From Mycobacterium florentinum (GTDB taxonomy: Bacteria; Actinomycetota; Actinomycetes; Mycobacteriales; Mycobacteriaceae), in the NCBI RefSeq assembly GCF_010730355.1, contig NZ_AP022576.1, positions 5,456,001-5,520,000 of the forward strand: a DNA stretch of 64,000 bases. Direction: 5' to 3'. The position numbers and the translations under genes are program-made. Below the pieces are notes generated by a model, which worked only from the letters and a program-made list of their open reading frames with translations, did not search any database and had not been told where the DNA came from. Numbering within the stretch: position 1 is the first letter of the stretch; each line of letters begins with the position of its first letter. Of this stretch, positions 23,362-29,650 are shown piece after piece.

Positions 23362-26157
23362 GTGATAGACGGTGACCAAACTTCAGACCCATCAACTGTG
23401 CCGGCCCAGGAAGACCTGCCGGACCGATTGAGAGTCCATTCTCTGGCACGAGCGCTGGGGACCACCAGCAAGCGGGTGGTAGACGCGCTCAGCGCGCTGG
23501 ATGGACGCATCCGCAGCGCACATTCCGGGGTGGACTACGAGGATGCGATCCGGGTGCGTGACCTGCTGTCGCCCCGGCCGCCGGAGAACTTCGTAGCCTT
23601 CAGCAACGCCGAAGCCGCCTCGCCCGGGGAACCCGGGCCCCGGCTGATGACGGAGCCCCCGATCGATCGCCCCGCCTACATGCCGCTGTTCGTAGCGCCG
23701 CAGCCGGTCGCGGCCGATCACACCGCGCGCGCCGCCGACAGCACCGACACCGACGATTCCGACGGCGACGACGACGGCGAGGACGACGAGGAGCAGGCCG
23801 ATCGGCCCGCCAACCGGCGGCGGCGACGCGGCCGGCGGGGACGTGGCCGCGGCCGCGGCGAACAGGGCGGATCCGACCAGGACGACGACGGCGACGGCCC
23901 GAAATCCGGTGACTCGGATGACTCTGACGACGCCGACGACCAGGACTCGGACGACTCCGACGACGGCTCCGATGACGGTTCGCCGGACGGCGGCAATCGG
24001 CGTCGTCGCAGGCGCCGTCGGCGCAAGTCCGGTTCCGGTGACGACAACGACGACGGCTCGCCCGATGATCCGCCGAACACCGTCGTGCACGAGCGCGCGC
24101 CGCGTGGCAAGGGCGGCTCCTCCGACGACGGCAGGAACAACGGCTCGAGCAATGCCGAGATCAAGGGCATCGACGGGTCGACGCGGCTGGAGGCCAAGCG
24201 GCAACGCCGCCGCGACGGGCGTGACGCCGGACGGCGCCGCCCGCCGGTACTGACCGAGGCCGAATTCCTGGCGCGCCGCGAGGCCGTCGAACGGGTCATG
24301 GTGGTGCGCGACCGGGTCCGCACCGAGCCGCCGCACCCCGGCTCCCGCTACACGCAGATCGCCGTGCTCGAAGACGGCATCGTCGTCGAGCATTTCGTGA
24401 CGTCGGCGGCGTCGGCGTCACTGGTCGGCAACATCTACCTGGGCATCGTGCAGAACGTGCTGCCCTCGATGGAGGCGGCGTTCGTCGACATCGGTCGGGG
24501 CCGCAACGGCGTGCTGTACGCCGGCGAGGTCAACTGGGAGGCCGCCGGACTGGGCGGCGCCGAGCGCAAGATCGAAAAGGCGCTCAAGCCCGGCGATTAC
24601 GTCGTCGTCCAGGTCAGCAAGGACCCGGTCGGACACAAGGGCGCCCGGCTGACCACGCAGGTCTCCCTGGCCGGCCGCTACCTGGTGTACGTGCCGGGTG
24701 CGTCGTCGACCGGGATCAGCCGCAAGCTGCCCGACACCGAACGCCAGCGTCTCAAGGAGATCCTGCGTGAGGTGGTGCCGTCGAACGCCGGAGTGATCAT
24801 CCGGACCGCGTCCGAGGGCGTCAAAGAGGACGACATCCGCCAGGATGTCACCCGCCTGCAGGAGCGCTGGGAACAGATCGAGGCCAAGGCGAGCGAGACC
24901 AAGGAGAAGGCCGCCGGCGCTGCGGTGGCGCTCTATGAAGAGCCCGACGTGTTGGTCAAGGTCATCCGCGACTTGTTCAACGAGGATTTCGCGGGCCTCA
25001 TCGTCTCCGGCGACGACGCCTGGAGCACCATCAACGACTACGTGAATTCGGTTGCGCCCGACCTGGTTTCGAAGCTGACCAAGTACGACCCCCCCGCGAC
25101 GGCGGACGGTCAGCCCGGGCCGGACGTGTTCGCGGTGCATCGCATCGACGAGCAACTGGCCAAGGCGACGGACCGCAAGGTGTGGCTGCCCTCGGGCGGA
25201 ACGCTGGTCATCGACCGGACCGAGGCGATGACGATCGTCGACGTCAACACCGGCAAGTTCACCGGATCGGGCGGCAACCTCGAACAGACGGTCACCAAGA
25301 ACAATCTCGAGGCGGCCGAGGAGACCGTGCGCCAGCTGCGGCTGCGCGACATCGGCGGCATCGTGGTCATCGACTTCATCGACATGGTGCTCGAATCCAA
25401 CCGCGACCTGGTGCTGCGCCGGCTGACCGAGGCGCTGGCCCGCGACCGCACCCGTCACCAGGTGTCCGAGGTGACCTCGCTGGGCCTGGTGCAGTTGACC
25501 CGCAAGCGACTGGGAACCGGTCTGATCGAGGCGTTTTCGACGTCGTGCCCGAACTGCGGCGGCCGCGGAATCCTGCTGCACGCCGACCCGGTCGACTCGG
25601 CCCCGGCGACCGGGCGCAAGTCCGAGTCCGGCGGCGGCCGGCGCGGCAAGCGGTCGAAGAAGAACCGATCCGAAGAGCCCGCCGATCAGCCCGCCGTCGC
25701 CAAGGTGCCCGTACACGCGCCGGGCGAACACCCGATGTTCAAGGCCATGGCGACTCGCGACAACGGTGAGGCCGAGGAGGGTGGCGAGGACGTCACCACC
25801 GAGGTCGACGAGCAGACCAAGGTGGAGGGTCCCGCCGATCTGGACGCCGACTCCGATGCCTTTGAGGACGCCGAGGACGACGACAACGACCAGGACTCCG
25901 ACGACGTCGACGAGGAGGACTCGGCAGACGAGGACCTCGACGATGACGACGACGACCTCGACGAGCTCGACGACGAGGATCTCGACGATGACGACGAGGA
26001 CCTCGATGACGACGAGGACCTCGATGACGACGAGGACCCCGACGACGAAAACGGCGACGCGGAGGATTCCGCGGCCGAGGCCGGGTCGGACTTTGAGCGT
26101 CCGCGGCGTCGGCGCGCGGCGGGCCGGCCGGCCGGCCCACCCATCCACATGGGCTGA
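23362..26157 (+). CDS. rne: Ribonuclease E/G
   Basis: 931 residues from a GTG (MIDGDQTSDPSTVP). The N-terminal 290 residues are a low-complexity extension with acidic Asp/Ser runs and Arg/Gly clusters (RRRRGRRGRGRGRGEQ), a likely RNA-binding arm. The S1 and RNase H-like catalytic core follows. Catalytic magnesium residues are Asp627 (DVNTGKF) and Asp671 (DFIDM), and the zinc link is Cys729/Cys732 (CPNCGGRG). The C-terminal 90 residues include a long Asp/Glu run. It carries out mRNA decay and rRNA processing. It corresponds to Rv2444c. Confidence 0.95.
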   Translation: MIDGDQTSDPSTVPAQEDLPDRLRVHSLARALGTTSKRVVDALSALDGRIRSAHSGVDYEDAIRVRDLLSPRPPENFVAFSNAEAASPGEPGPRLMTEPPIDRPAYMPLFVAPQPVAADHTARAADSTDTDDSDGDDDGEDDEEQADRPANRRRRRGRRGRGRGRGEQGGSDQDDDGDGPKSGDSDDSDDADDQDSDDSDDGSDDGSPDGGNRRRRRRRRRKSGSGDDNDDGSPDDPPNTVVHERAPRGKGGSSDDGRNNGSSNAEIKGIDGSTRLEAKRQRRRDGRDAGRRRPPVLTEAEFLARREAVERVMVVRDRVRTEPPHPGSRYTQIAVLEDGIVVEHFVTSAASASLVGNIYLGIVQNVLPSMEAAFVDIGRGRNGVLYAGEVNWEAAGLGGAERKIEKALKPGDYVVVQVSKDPVGHKGARLTTQVSLAGRYLVYVPGASSTGISRKLPDTERQRLKEILREVVPSNAGVIIRTASEGVKEDDIRQDVTRLQERWEQIEAKASETKEKAAGAAVALYEEPDVLVKVIRDLFNEDFAGLIVSGDDAWSTINDYVNSVAPDLVSKLTKYDPPATADGQPGPDVFAVHRIDEQLAKATDRKVWLPSGGTLVIDRTEAMTIVDVNTGKFTGSGGNLEQTVTKNNLEAAEETVRQLRLRDIGGIVVIDFIDMVLESNRDLVLRRLTEALARDRTRHQVSEVTSLGLVQLTRKRLGTGLIEAFSTSCPNCGGRGILLHADPVDSAPATGRKSESGGGRRGKRSKKNRSEEPADQPAVAKVPVHAPGEHPMFKAMATRDNGEAEEGGEDVTTEVDEQTKVEGPADLDADSDAFEDAEDDDNDQDSDDVDEEDSADEDLDDDDDDLDELDDEDLDDDDEDLDDDEDLDDDEDPDDENGDAEDSAAEAGSDFERPRRRRAAGRPAGPPIHMG
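25890..26050 (+). repeat. Short Asp/Glu-coding repeats in rne
   Basis: Near-tandem GACGAGGAC/CTCGATGAC-type units encode an acidic run of about 50 residues. The last three units (about 25985-26035) are nearly identical and could vary in copy number. Confidence 0.6.
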
Positions 26158-26286
26158 TCTGTCCCGCGGCGGGCTGCCGAGTCTCTTGCGTCGCCGGTCC
26201 GGTTGACGGTTACCTGGCGCTTGCCCGATTCTTATTAGATCGCCTTACTGTACTGACGCTTAATAGGCAGATGCAGGGGAGCCGTC

Positions 26287-29076
26287 GTGGATTTTGGGTT
26301 GCTTCCGCCCGAGGTCAATTCAGCGCTGATGTATTCGGGTCCCGGGCCCGGGCCGCTGCTGGAGGCGGCGGTGAGCTGGGAGGCGGTGGCCGCCGAGCTG
26401 GAGTCCACCGCGGCGGGCTATTCGGCGCAGGTTTCGGGGCTGAGCGGTCTGACCTGGTCGGGTCCGTCGTCGGTGTCGATGACGGTGGCGGCCGAACCGT
26501 ACGTGGGGTGGTTGCAGGCGAGTGCCGCGCAAGCCGCCCAGACGTCGGCGCAGGCGTACGCGGCCGCGTCGGCCTACGAGGCGGCGTTCGCCATGACGGT
26601 GCCTCCGCCGGTGATAGCGGCCAACCGTGCGCAGTTGATGGCATTGGCTGCCACGAATTTTCTGGGGCAGAACAGTGCGGCGATTGCGGCCACCGAGGCG
26701 CAGTACGCGGAGATGTGGATCCAGGACGCCACCGCGATGTACGGCTACGCCGTCGATGCGTCGGCCGCGGGCACCCTGACGTCGTATCAGGAACCGCCGC
26801 AGACCACTGATGAGGCGGGACGGGATGCGCAGGCTCGCGCGGTGGCTGACAGCGCGGCCGACACCGCGAGGGCCGAAACCCAAAACCTGACCCAGCTGGC
26901 ACAACCGGCCACCCAACAGGTGGCCGCCGCCAACGCCGCGCAGCAGATCACCGGCGGCAACGTCACCATCGGATCGGGCGGAAACCTCACCATCGGCCCG
27001 GGTCTCACCACCGTTGGGCCAAACGGGACCTACACGTCGATCACCATCGAGTCCGGCGGCACGCTGACCGTCAACGGCACTCTCCTGATCCTCCCCGGCG
27101 GCACGATCACCGACGGCGGCACGCTGATCATCAACTCCGGTGGCACCCTCACCGTCTCCAACGGTGCCAGCGTCACCGTGGGCAGCGGCGCCGTGCTCAG
27201 CGTCAACAGCGGTGGCGTCCTGTCGATCAATAGCGGCGGCGTTGTCACCGTCAACGGAGCCCTTTTCATCCAGGGGGCTGTCACCGACGCCGGCACCCTC
27301 ACCGTCAACGCCGGCGGCGACGTCACGAGTTTCGACGCCGGCACTCTCACGGTCGCCGACGGCGGCGCCCTCAGCGACTACGGCAGCCTCACCGTTCTGC
27401 CTTCCAGCAGTCTCACCGTCGACGACGGCGGCACCCTCACCGTCGCCAACGGCGGCACTCTCAGCGACTACGGCACCCTGGCCAACAGCGGAACCCTCGC
27501 GCTCGACAACGGGGGCACCCTGACCGTCTACCCCGGTGGCGTGTTGAACGATTACGGCACCATCACCAACTACGGCACCCTGGCCGTCAACGACGGCACC
27601 GTCACCAACCCGGGCATCCTCTCCGTCCATGACGGCGGCGTCCTCGACGACTACGGACACCTCGCGGTCAATGCCAATGGCACGGTGGACGTCTACACCG
27701 GTGGCACGGTCAACGAATACGGATCCCTGACCGTGGACGCCGGCAGCACATTCAACGATGCCGGCGCTCTCAACGTCAACGACGGCGGCGCCGTCACCCT
27801 GAGCAATGACGGCGTGCTCACCGTGTACAGCGACGGCACCCTCACCGTCTCCGACGGCGGCACCGTCAGCGACGGTGGCGCGTTGACCGTCGCCGACGGG
27901 GGCACCCTGACCGATGGCGGTGCCCTGACCGTCGACACCGGGGGCACCCTCACGGACGACGGGGCCCTCACCGTTGGCGATGGCGGCACGCTCTGCGTCA
28001 GCGACGGTGGCGCGTTGACCGTCGCCGACGGGGGCACCCTGACCGATGGCGGTGCCCTGACCGTCGACACCGGGGGCACCCTCACGGATGACGGAGCGCT
28101 CACGGTTAGCCATGGCGGCACGCTGTCCGTCAGCGACGGTGGCGCGTTGACGGTCACCGACGGGGGCACCCTGAGCGTCAGCGATGGGAGCACTCTCACC
28201 GACGCGGGCGCGGTGAGCGTCGACTCCGGTGGCACCCTCACCGTGGGCCATGACGGCACGATGACCGTCACCACCGGCGGCACCCTCAGTGATTACGGCA
28301 CCGTGTCCAACATCGGCACCCTGTCCAACAGCGGCACGCTGACCGTGTACCCCGGCGGTGCGTTGGACGACTACGGCACCGTCCTCAACTACGGCACCCT
28401 GGCCGTCAACGACGGGACCGTCACCGACCCGGGCGCTCTCACCGTCTACAACGGCGCCGTTCTCAACGACTACGGTCACCTCGCGGTCGATGGCCACGGC
28501 ACCCTCGACGTGAACCTCGGTGGCATCGTCAACGAATACGGTTCGCTGACCGTGGACGCCGGCAGCGCCTTCAACGATGGTGGCGCGCTCAACGTCAACG
28601 CCGGTGGCACCCTCACCCTCGGCGATGGCGGTGTTCTGACCGTCTACAACGGCGGTACCCTCACCGTCGCCGACGGTGGCACCGTCACCGTCGGATCGGG
28701 CGGCACCGTCCCGATCGGCAGCGGCGGCACTCTCGCCGTCGACGCCGGCGGTGCGCTCACCATCAACGGCGGCGGGTTCGTCGTTGTCACCGACGGCAGC
28801 ATCGTGCCCGTCGCACCAGGCGGCACGATCGTCGTCGGCCCCGGCGACGTCGTCACCGTCTACCCCGGCGGCTTTGCGGGGTCCAGCGGCTACTTCGGCC
28901 CGGTGACCGTGGGTCCGGGGGTGCTGTCGGTGACGCCGCCGCCCGCTTCCGTAGCTTCCCCGGGCCTCGGCTTGTCGAGTTCACCGGGCCTGGCGGGCAC
29001 CTCGGGAATCCAGCCCCGGTTCGATCCCGGCGCGCTGACGGACGCTTTCGCCGGCTCGCCGAGCTACGCGGATTGA
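26287..29076 (+). CDS. PPE-family protein with a long autotransporter-like repeat domain
   Basis: 929 residues from a GTG at 26287 with AGGGGAG ahead. Residues 1-175 are a PPE domain: Pro-Pro-Glu at 7-9, and W57-S-G in [11 protein letters not shown], the WxG turn of the PPE helical hairpin. Residues about 176-220 are a hydrophilic linker. Residues about 222-865 consist of 6-8-residue units G-G-T-L-T-V-x-(D/N) with variants such as GTLSDY, an array that would suit a right-handed beta-solenoid. The last 60 residues are Pro/Ser/Gly-rich. There is no PE partner beside it. Export by an ESX (probably ESX-5) system is inferred from the PPE domain. It lies where M. tuberculosis has dctA (Rv2443). This is not a classical MPTR, SVP or PPW PPE. 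Confidence 0.9.
27520..28680 (+). repeat. Long-range duplicated blocks in the PPE gene (offset 819 bases)
   Basis: The protein segment beginning [13 protein letters not shown] (residue 412) recurs as [13 protein letters not shown] (residue 685), and the similarity continues for about 110 residues. This includes [20 protein letters not shown] and [12 protein letters not shown] in the same order. The DNA offset is 819 bases, a multiple of 3, and divergence is greater than in the 132-base repeat. Confidence 0.85.
27864..28088 (+). repeat. Tandem 132-base repeat in the PPE gene
   Basis: Bases 27864-27956 and 27996-28088 (93 bases each) are identical and offset by 132 bases, i.e. 44 codons. The intervening bases differ at a few positions. 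This is a recent in-frame duplication. Confidence 0.9.
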
Positions 29077-29338: not shown

Positions 29339-29650
29339 ATGGCGACCTACGCAATCGTCAAGACCGGTGGCAAGCAGTACAAGGTCGCCGTCGGTGACGT
29401 GGTCAAGGTCGAGAAGCTCGAATCCGAGCCCGGCGCCAAGGTGTCGCTGCCGGTCGCGCTGGTTGTCGACGGTGCCACCGTCACTTCCGACGCCGCCGCG
29501 CTGGCCAAGGTCGCGGTGACCGGCGAGGTACTCGAGCACACCAAGGGCCCGAAGATCCGTATCCACAAGTTCAAGAACAAGACCGGCTACCACAAGCGTC
29601 AGGGACACCGTCAGCAGCTGACGGTCCTGAAGGTCACCGGAATCAAGTAG
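29339..29650 (+). CDS. rplU: 50S ribosomal protein L21
   Basis: 103 residues. It begins [20 protein letters not shown], the L21 signature, and ends with the basic RNA-binding segment [11 protein letters not shown]. It binds 23S rRNA in the large subunit. rpmA follows after 14 bases, the universal rplU-rpmA pairing. Confidence 0.97.

Follow-up and report, generated by a model that had tools for sequence, protein, structure and literature searches.

Genes and features of the locus

The window analysed here is a 64,000-nucleotide stretch of the Mycobacterium florentinum genome (NCBI RefSeq assembly GCF_010730355.1, contig NZ_AP022576.1, positions 5,456,001 to 5,520,000 of the forward strand). 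It carries a gene, called here the solenoid PPE gene, whose product joins an N-terminal PPE domain to a long array of short repeats. The features of this gene and its surroundings, in window positions, were as follows.

26287..29076, plus strand: solenoid PPE gene, GTG start, open reading frame (ORF) of 929 residues
26290..26775, plus strand: PPE domain, residues 2-163, with WxG at 57-59 and with D2, N124, E137 and E142 present
26776..26946, plus strand: linker, residues 164-220, Ala/Gln-rich, of the type found in short PPE relatives
26947..28884, plus strand: repeat array, residues 221-866, units of 8 and 6 residues, predicted parallel beta-helix
27508..27867, plus strand: internal long duplication, copy 1, residues 408-527
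28327..28686, plus strand: internal long duplication, copy 2, residues 681-800, 75% identical to copy 1
27863..28174, plus strand: tandem repeat of 132 bp, 2.4 copies, 93% matches
28978..29037, plus strand: conserved C-terminal tail, residues 898-917, of the type found in short relatives
26221..26286, plus strand: upstream block, conserved also at the orthologue in M. triplex, probable promoter and leader
23362..26157, plus strand: 5' neighbour, ribonuclease E (NF052588, 1664 bits)
29339..29650, plus strand: 3' neighbour, gene of ribosomal protein L21; L27, Obg and proB come next

The PPE domain was recognized by PF00823 over residues 2-163 with 211.6 bits (cut-off 26) and an E-value of 9.3e-63, and it was the sole Pfam domain above cut-off in the 929-residue protein. 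The family marks P7 P8 E9 and W57-S58-G59 were found at the residues given in a preliminary description of this DNA, which had been made from the sequence alone. The closest solved relative of the domain was PPE15 in the EspG5 complex 5xfs (E 1.2e-54).

The solenoid PPE ORF begins 129 bp past the end of the rne ORF. The conserved upstream block contains a GGGGAG stretch that resembles a ribosome-binding site as judged by eye, and no match to the sigma-70 consensus was found on its plus strand. The C-terminal part of ribonuclease E carries an acidic tandem array with GAGGACGAC-type units (window 25864-26048).

Period and constraint of the repeat array

The preliminary description had noted some 640 residues of short repeats, and the analysis bore this out, with about 646 residues made up of 8- and 6-residue units. 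Residues 220-865 contained 22% Gly, 16% Thr and no Lys or Arg, and the array was acidic, with 59 Asp plus Glu. The hydrophobic periodicity was far above chance, with z values of 14.1 at lag 8, 9.4 at lag 14 and 10.0 at lag 22 in comparison with 200 shuffles, and further autocorrelation peaks were present at lags 16 and 24. Counting by motif over residues 221-866 gave 37 units of 8 residues (G-G-T-L-T-V-x-D type) and 21-22 units of 6 residues (G-G-T-L-T-D type), the remaining units being of 7 residues or other lengths. Among the 8-residue units, Gly at position 2 was present in 37/37, as the search motif itself demands, and a hydrophobic residue was present at position 4 in 37/37 and at position 6 in 34/37. 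The array has also been duplicated on a larger scale, both as the 120-residue block that recurs at residues 408-527 and 681-800 and as the 132-bp tandem in the DNA.

The orthologue in M. triplex lies in the same place between the same flanking genes and is 84% identical. The gaps in the repeat region of the alignment were of 8, 8, 6 and 16 residues, and two more measured 5 and 2 residues, so that four of the six indels corresponded to one whole unit or to two units. The ratio of non-synonymous to synonymous substitution rates (dN/dS) against this orthologue was 0.125 for the PPE domain and 0.306 for the repeats, which indicates that the gene is under constraint. In another genome (G076, L097:7943-9046), the gene beside rplU survives only as a broken remnant, with stop codons inside the matching region.

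Predicted fold and matches to known families

The structure of residues 655-880 was predicted by AlphaFold2 from a four-row alignment. The model was a parallel beta-helix with a mean predicted local distance difference test score (pLDDT) of 77.5. The closest solved folds to both this segment and the full-length model, as found by Foldseek, were the passengers TibA and Ag43. The autotransporter-like solenoid of the preliminary description was thus partly supported, as a shape predicted by a program that is biased towards such folds, as discussed below. AIDA-I was not matched by name. Membership of an AIDA or autotransporter family was rejected, since no such Pfam family appeared at E<=1 in the 929-residue protein. 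At that threshold Pfam gave only PPE, DUF5649 and Hyphal_reg_CWP, and no C-terminal outer-membrane barrel of the kind that type Va autotransporters possess.

The filamentous haemagglutinin family PF05594 (Fil_haemagg) was above its curated cut-off in six of ten long PPEs scanned. The window protein, which was among the ten, did not reach the cut-off, nor did L107 (21.1 of 21.5 bits), L109 and L114; the scores of L112 and L117 are sums over stretches, each of which alone was under the cut-off. For the Ag43 model NF033177 the score in L095, a long relative, was only 17.8 of 1200 bits; L112 and L109 had no listed match to it.

Three other candidates were set aside. The strand-loop-strand repeat TIGR04415 reached only E 0.85 and 9.7 of 30 bits in NCBIfam. 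A flagellar FlgF model of NCBIfam (24.9 of 210 bits) and the VgrG-like spike 9gtr of the PDB (E 9.4e-6, and 7.9e-5 in a relative) were put down, by judgement, to repeat character or composition.

A family of long-array PPEs in Mycobacterium

A query made of the repeats only matched 18 of 396 Mycobacterium genomes at E<=1e-12. The genus searches scored only a few candidates per genome, and their genome counts are lower bounds. In a sample of 296 genomes of the phylum, the same query matched the window's own genome and gave one weak match (E 4.6e-9), the sole one outside Mycobacterium in that sample, which lies in an 854-residue frame (L123; G637:C19:118605-118943). When 84,980 species were scanned with a peptide pattern that reaches close relatives only, M. 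triplex and M. genavense alone were confirmed.

The fetched loci yielded 17 complete ORFs that run from the PPE start to a stop codon. With that of the window these make 18, of 553 to 2,920 residues; additional long-array ORFs, broken or ending at contig ends, are outside the 18. The long-array genes occupy several fixed loci, as judged by shared flanking DNA. The tail PGLxGTSGIQPQ or a variant of it was present in 14 of the 18 complete ORFs. At one locus, orthologues of 696, 737, 1,477 and 1,716 residues stand in the same position, and these four end in a GITGxV type instead.

A second long-array PPE of the M. florentinum genome survives as a relic (C1:3845342-3846550; L093:3343-4551), adjoining the gene of a nucleoside diphosphate kinase regulator. 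It lacks the PPE domain and keeps the repeats and the tail, the latter in another frame. Its flanks match those of L103, L114 and L116; the long copies at these loci measure 1,626 residues (truncated at a contig end), 2,059 and 1,680.

Short relatives and probable growth of the array in place

The preliminary description was silent on the C-terminal tail and on relatives in the same genome. Seven short PPEs of 392-422 residues in the M. florentinum genome share an EPPQTTN-type linker and a PGLAGTAxIQPQ tail, which enclose a small, Gly/Val-rich middle (beta as judged by eye). In one of them (L023/L039, 411 residues), the middle already reads GGVITVNAGGLITVDSAGSLTVGPGS, like the long repeat. None of the seven matched PF12484 at E<=0.01, and one SVP control, L001, scored 53.0 bits. 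A profile of the seven short C-termini matched 31 of 396 Mycobacterium genomes, including 16 of the 18 that have long arrays.

In a tree of PPE domains, 23 long and 8 short rows were split from 14 SVP rows with branch support of 97/97. The tree was built from an alignment of 180 columns and has many weak inner forks, and placing its root on SVP was a choice. The rows nearest to SVP were the four long ones from a single locus (L105, L117, L118 and L121), which another root could make sisters of the SVP rows. When the long rows, a group defined by ourselves, were constrained to one clade, the constraint was rejected by the approximately unbiased (AU) test (p 0.022), and a single origin of the long forms was rejected with it. 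The own-genome rows of a first tree were 23 proteins, out of 52 PPE matches, that a text pattern picked from the fetched loci. In the second tree, the one described here, three of these 23 were dropped and three others added; the first-tree rows absent from it were own_L060, own_L042, own_L058 and sol_L099 (long branch, broken or short frames). The 680-residue protein own_L037 was counted in the short group by judgement and not by its tail. This PPE (L094/L037, near C1:5429536-5430690) is close to the lineage. Where the long forms have repeats, its middle is rich in Thr, Ser and Pro, and its C-terminal part is of another kind.

Because the seven short relatives share the linker and the tail, because a single clade of long forms was rejected, and because orthologues at one locus span 696 to 1,716 residues, the array most likely grew in place within one PPE lineage. 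The preliminary description had stated that the protein "has acquired" its passenger. On the same comparisons this is probably wrong, at least within the phylum, an origin outside it not having been searched for. Growth and shrinkage in place would account better than import for the tree, the short relatives and the length changes.

Proposed export and surface display

The tip residues of PPE proteins that contact EspG5 are reported to be D2, N124, a hydrophobic residue at 125, E137 and E142 (PMC11395111). D2, N124, E137 and E142 were all present in the window PPE; position 125 is Phe, in contrast to the Val/Ile of PPE31/PPE32. In a reconstituted system, PPEs of the M. xenopi ESX-5 locus were reported to be displayed on the cell surface (PMC10597459). 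Since the contact residues are present and the M. xenopi proteins reach the surface, surface display of the window PPE would be expected by analogy.

The M. florentinum genome gave 11 PE matches and 52 PPE matches, and six other long-array genomes gave 8-16 PE matches. Many PPEs of M. florentinum must have a PE partner in common, rely on one encoded elsewhere in the genome or do without. The long PPEs may have an unlinked PE partner.

Place among the PPE subgroups

In the literature three PPE subgroups, PPW, SVP and MPTR, are distinguished in addition to the PPEs of ESX-1 and ESX-2 (PMC7028111). The 929-residue protein contained no PF12484 at E<=1 and no SVP motif, no PxxPxxW of the PPW type and no NxGxGNxG of the MPTR type; PF01469 was absent from the protein and from its genome. 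With respect to the SVP subgroup, the likeness is that PPE15, which we take to be of the SVP class, has the nearest solved PPE domain, whereas the missing PF12484 and SVP motif and the separate branch on the PPE-domain tree set the window protein apart.

In MPTR proteins, for example PPE62 and PPE56, the PPE domain likewise precedes a long tandem array, with a total of up to 3,716 residues (PMC7028111), and that array too is proposed to be a beta-helix (PMC5263243, PMC4758615). The repeat is different, being NxGxGNxG (Pentapeptide_2, PF01469) in MPTR and GGTLTVxD/GGTLTD in the window protein. A beta-helix has already been proposed for MPTR or pentapeptide PPEs in several papers (PMC4758615, PMC5263243, PMC4858275), and the preliminary description overlooked this idea as published for PPE62 (PMC5263243). 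Its remark that no PPE subfamily of this kind was described has so far stood: searches of openly licensed papers, judged by the titles and abstract openings listed, showed no description of the GGTLTVxD-type repeat or of its PPE lineage, and a description elsewhere is possible. Beta-helical PPE C-termini are thus a published idea, and for this repeat and lineage no published name was found.

Ag43 and TibA (type Va) would share with the window protein a beta-helical surface passenger. Unlike them, it has an N-terminal PPE domain and no barrel or second domain by Pfam; it gave no match to them in the PDB sequence search, and the Ag43 model had only a low score in one long relative. Filamentous haemagglutinin (type Vb) is resembled in its repeats by the six PPEs above the PF05594 cut-off, and not by the window protein, L107, L109 and L114.

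Pentapeptide_2 matches were present in 0/18 long-array genomes and in 95/396 Mycobacterium genomes (hypergeometric p 0.006), and in 0/33 genomes when those with short relatives were added (p 7.5e-5); these p values are too small to trust because the species share ancestry. An initial comparison of 0/18 with 9/17 used the first-listed other genomes as an unmatched set. Shared ancestry without replacement could give the same exclusion.

We tentatively suggest, at somewhat under even confidence, that these proteins form a further PPE subgroup beside PPW, SVP and MPTR, with an autotransporter-like beta-helix C-terminus grown in place several times. They would be type VII-secreted counterparts of Ag43 and filamentous haemagglutinin, of up to about 2,900 residues, and would stand in for MPTR proteins where these are absent.

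Proposed function and alternatives

The domain make-up, the repeat period, the family, the shared lineage, the unit-sized indels and the constraint are observations. As for what they amount to, we lean towards an ESX-5-exported PPE with a C-terminal beta-helix rod on the cell surface that serves as an adhesin or self-association stalk and has grown in place in one PPE lineage. The type VII system ESX-5 would export the protein by way of the N-terminal PPE domain, and the array would form a stiff rod exposed at the cell surface, folded into a right-handed parallel beta-helix in which three units of 8 or 6 residues would make one turn of about 22 residues. A beta-helix rises 0.48 nm per turn; about 28 turns would give a rod of about 13 nm, and for the longest relatives a rod of some 55 nm would be expected. 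By analogy with Ag43 and TibA in Gram-negatives, the most likely role of the rod would be that of a surface adhesin or self-association stalk, and adhesion or cell-cell contact is its likely function. The array would have been built up as short units of a small domain already present were duplicated time after time, and no foreign passenger would have been imported.

Several results weigh against this reading. The full-length AlphaFold2 model had a mean pLDDT of 51.0, with residues 1-223 below 50 despite the well-known domain there, because its alignment had two rows only. For the eight Foldseek matches at E<=0.001, the query-normalised template modelling scores were low, at 0.10-0.17 with the full-length model and 0.11-0.31 with the segment model. 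The beta-helix model is not decisive because AlphaFold2 over-predicts such folds; confident beta-solenoids are reported for random perfect repeats, 32/78 in one set (PMC11795689). The parallel beta-helix is also common to many enzymes and phage tailspikes, and therefore the fold alone is no sign of adhesion. In the 929-residue protein no repeat family was above cut-off in Pfam or NCBIfam, and neither Ag43 nor filamentous haemagglutinin was matched in the PDB sequence search. The C-terminal tail evolves loosely (dN/dS 0.617 against M. triplex). As to export, Glu142 is reported to have mattered for EspG5 binding (PMC11395111), and it was kept in 15/23 long PPEs, with Gln or Ala in 8/23. Well-studied PPEs are reported to be exported together with a PE partner (PMC7028111); none of the 11 PE matches of the genome adjoined the window gene, and in the six other long-array genomes no PE lay within 10 kb of the long PPEs by coordinates.

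Among the alternatives, a nutrient- or heme-binding rod like the proposed HxuA-like beta-helix of PPE62, which would serve uptake across the outer membrane and not adhesion, seems doubtful. PPE62, an MPTR protein, is reported to be surface-accessible and needed for efficient heme use, with a predicted three-sheet right-handed beta-helix (PMC5263243), and no genome in which long-array PPEs were found had the MPTR repeat (0/18), as if one kind were a substitute for the other. However, a plain acidic array whose length varies highly among orthologues would be easier to reconcile with a spacer or adhesin than with a receptor.

It is rather unlikely that the beta-helical passenger came ready-made into an ordinary PPE gene from another bacterium. 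The predicted fold does match autotransporter passengers best, six of the ten long PPEs scanned match Fil_haemagg, and the repeat searches covered the window's phylum, which leaves room for a distant donor. Against such a transfer, the repeats were found in 18/396 genomes of the genus but in the phylum sample gave only the own genome and one weak match, the 84,980-species scan with its reach to close relatives added only M. triplex and M. genavense, and G+C was equal in the PPE domain (0.688) and the repeats (0.687). The short relatives, moreover, carry linker and tail of the same kind around a smaller middle, which in one case is repeat-like.

Least probable is an array that grew by duplication as low-complexity sequence, has no definite fold and is tolerated as a Gly-rich, disordered surface coat or antigenic decoy: the length changes among orthologues, the 132-bp tandem at 93% matches, the 22% Gly and the AlphaFold2 bias (PMC11795689) would fit it, but the kept hydrophobic positions 4 and 6 of the units, the repeat dN/dS of 0.306 and the four of six repeat-region indels of one or two whole units speak against it.

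Biological meaning

PPE proteins are mostly interpreted through M. tuberculosis. If an exported beta-helix rod is the correct reading, an unnamed family of very long PPE rods in other mycobacteria would mean that type VII secretion has yielded beta-helical surface fibres more than once. Such rods would be a strongly patterned substrate for studying the passage of long proteins across the mycobacterial outer membrane. Because none of the 18 long-array genomes had an MPTR match, replacement of one type by the other is a testable idea. The short relatives in the M. florentinum genome and the length-variable orthologues may let the growth of a solenoid be traced stepwise.
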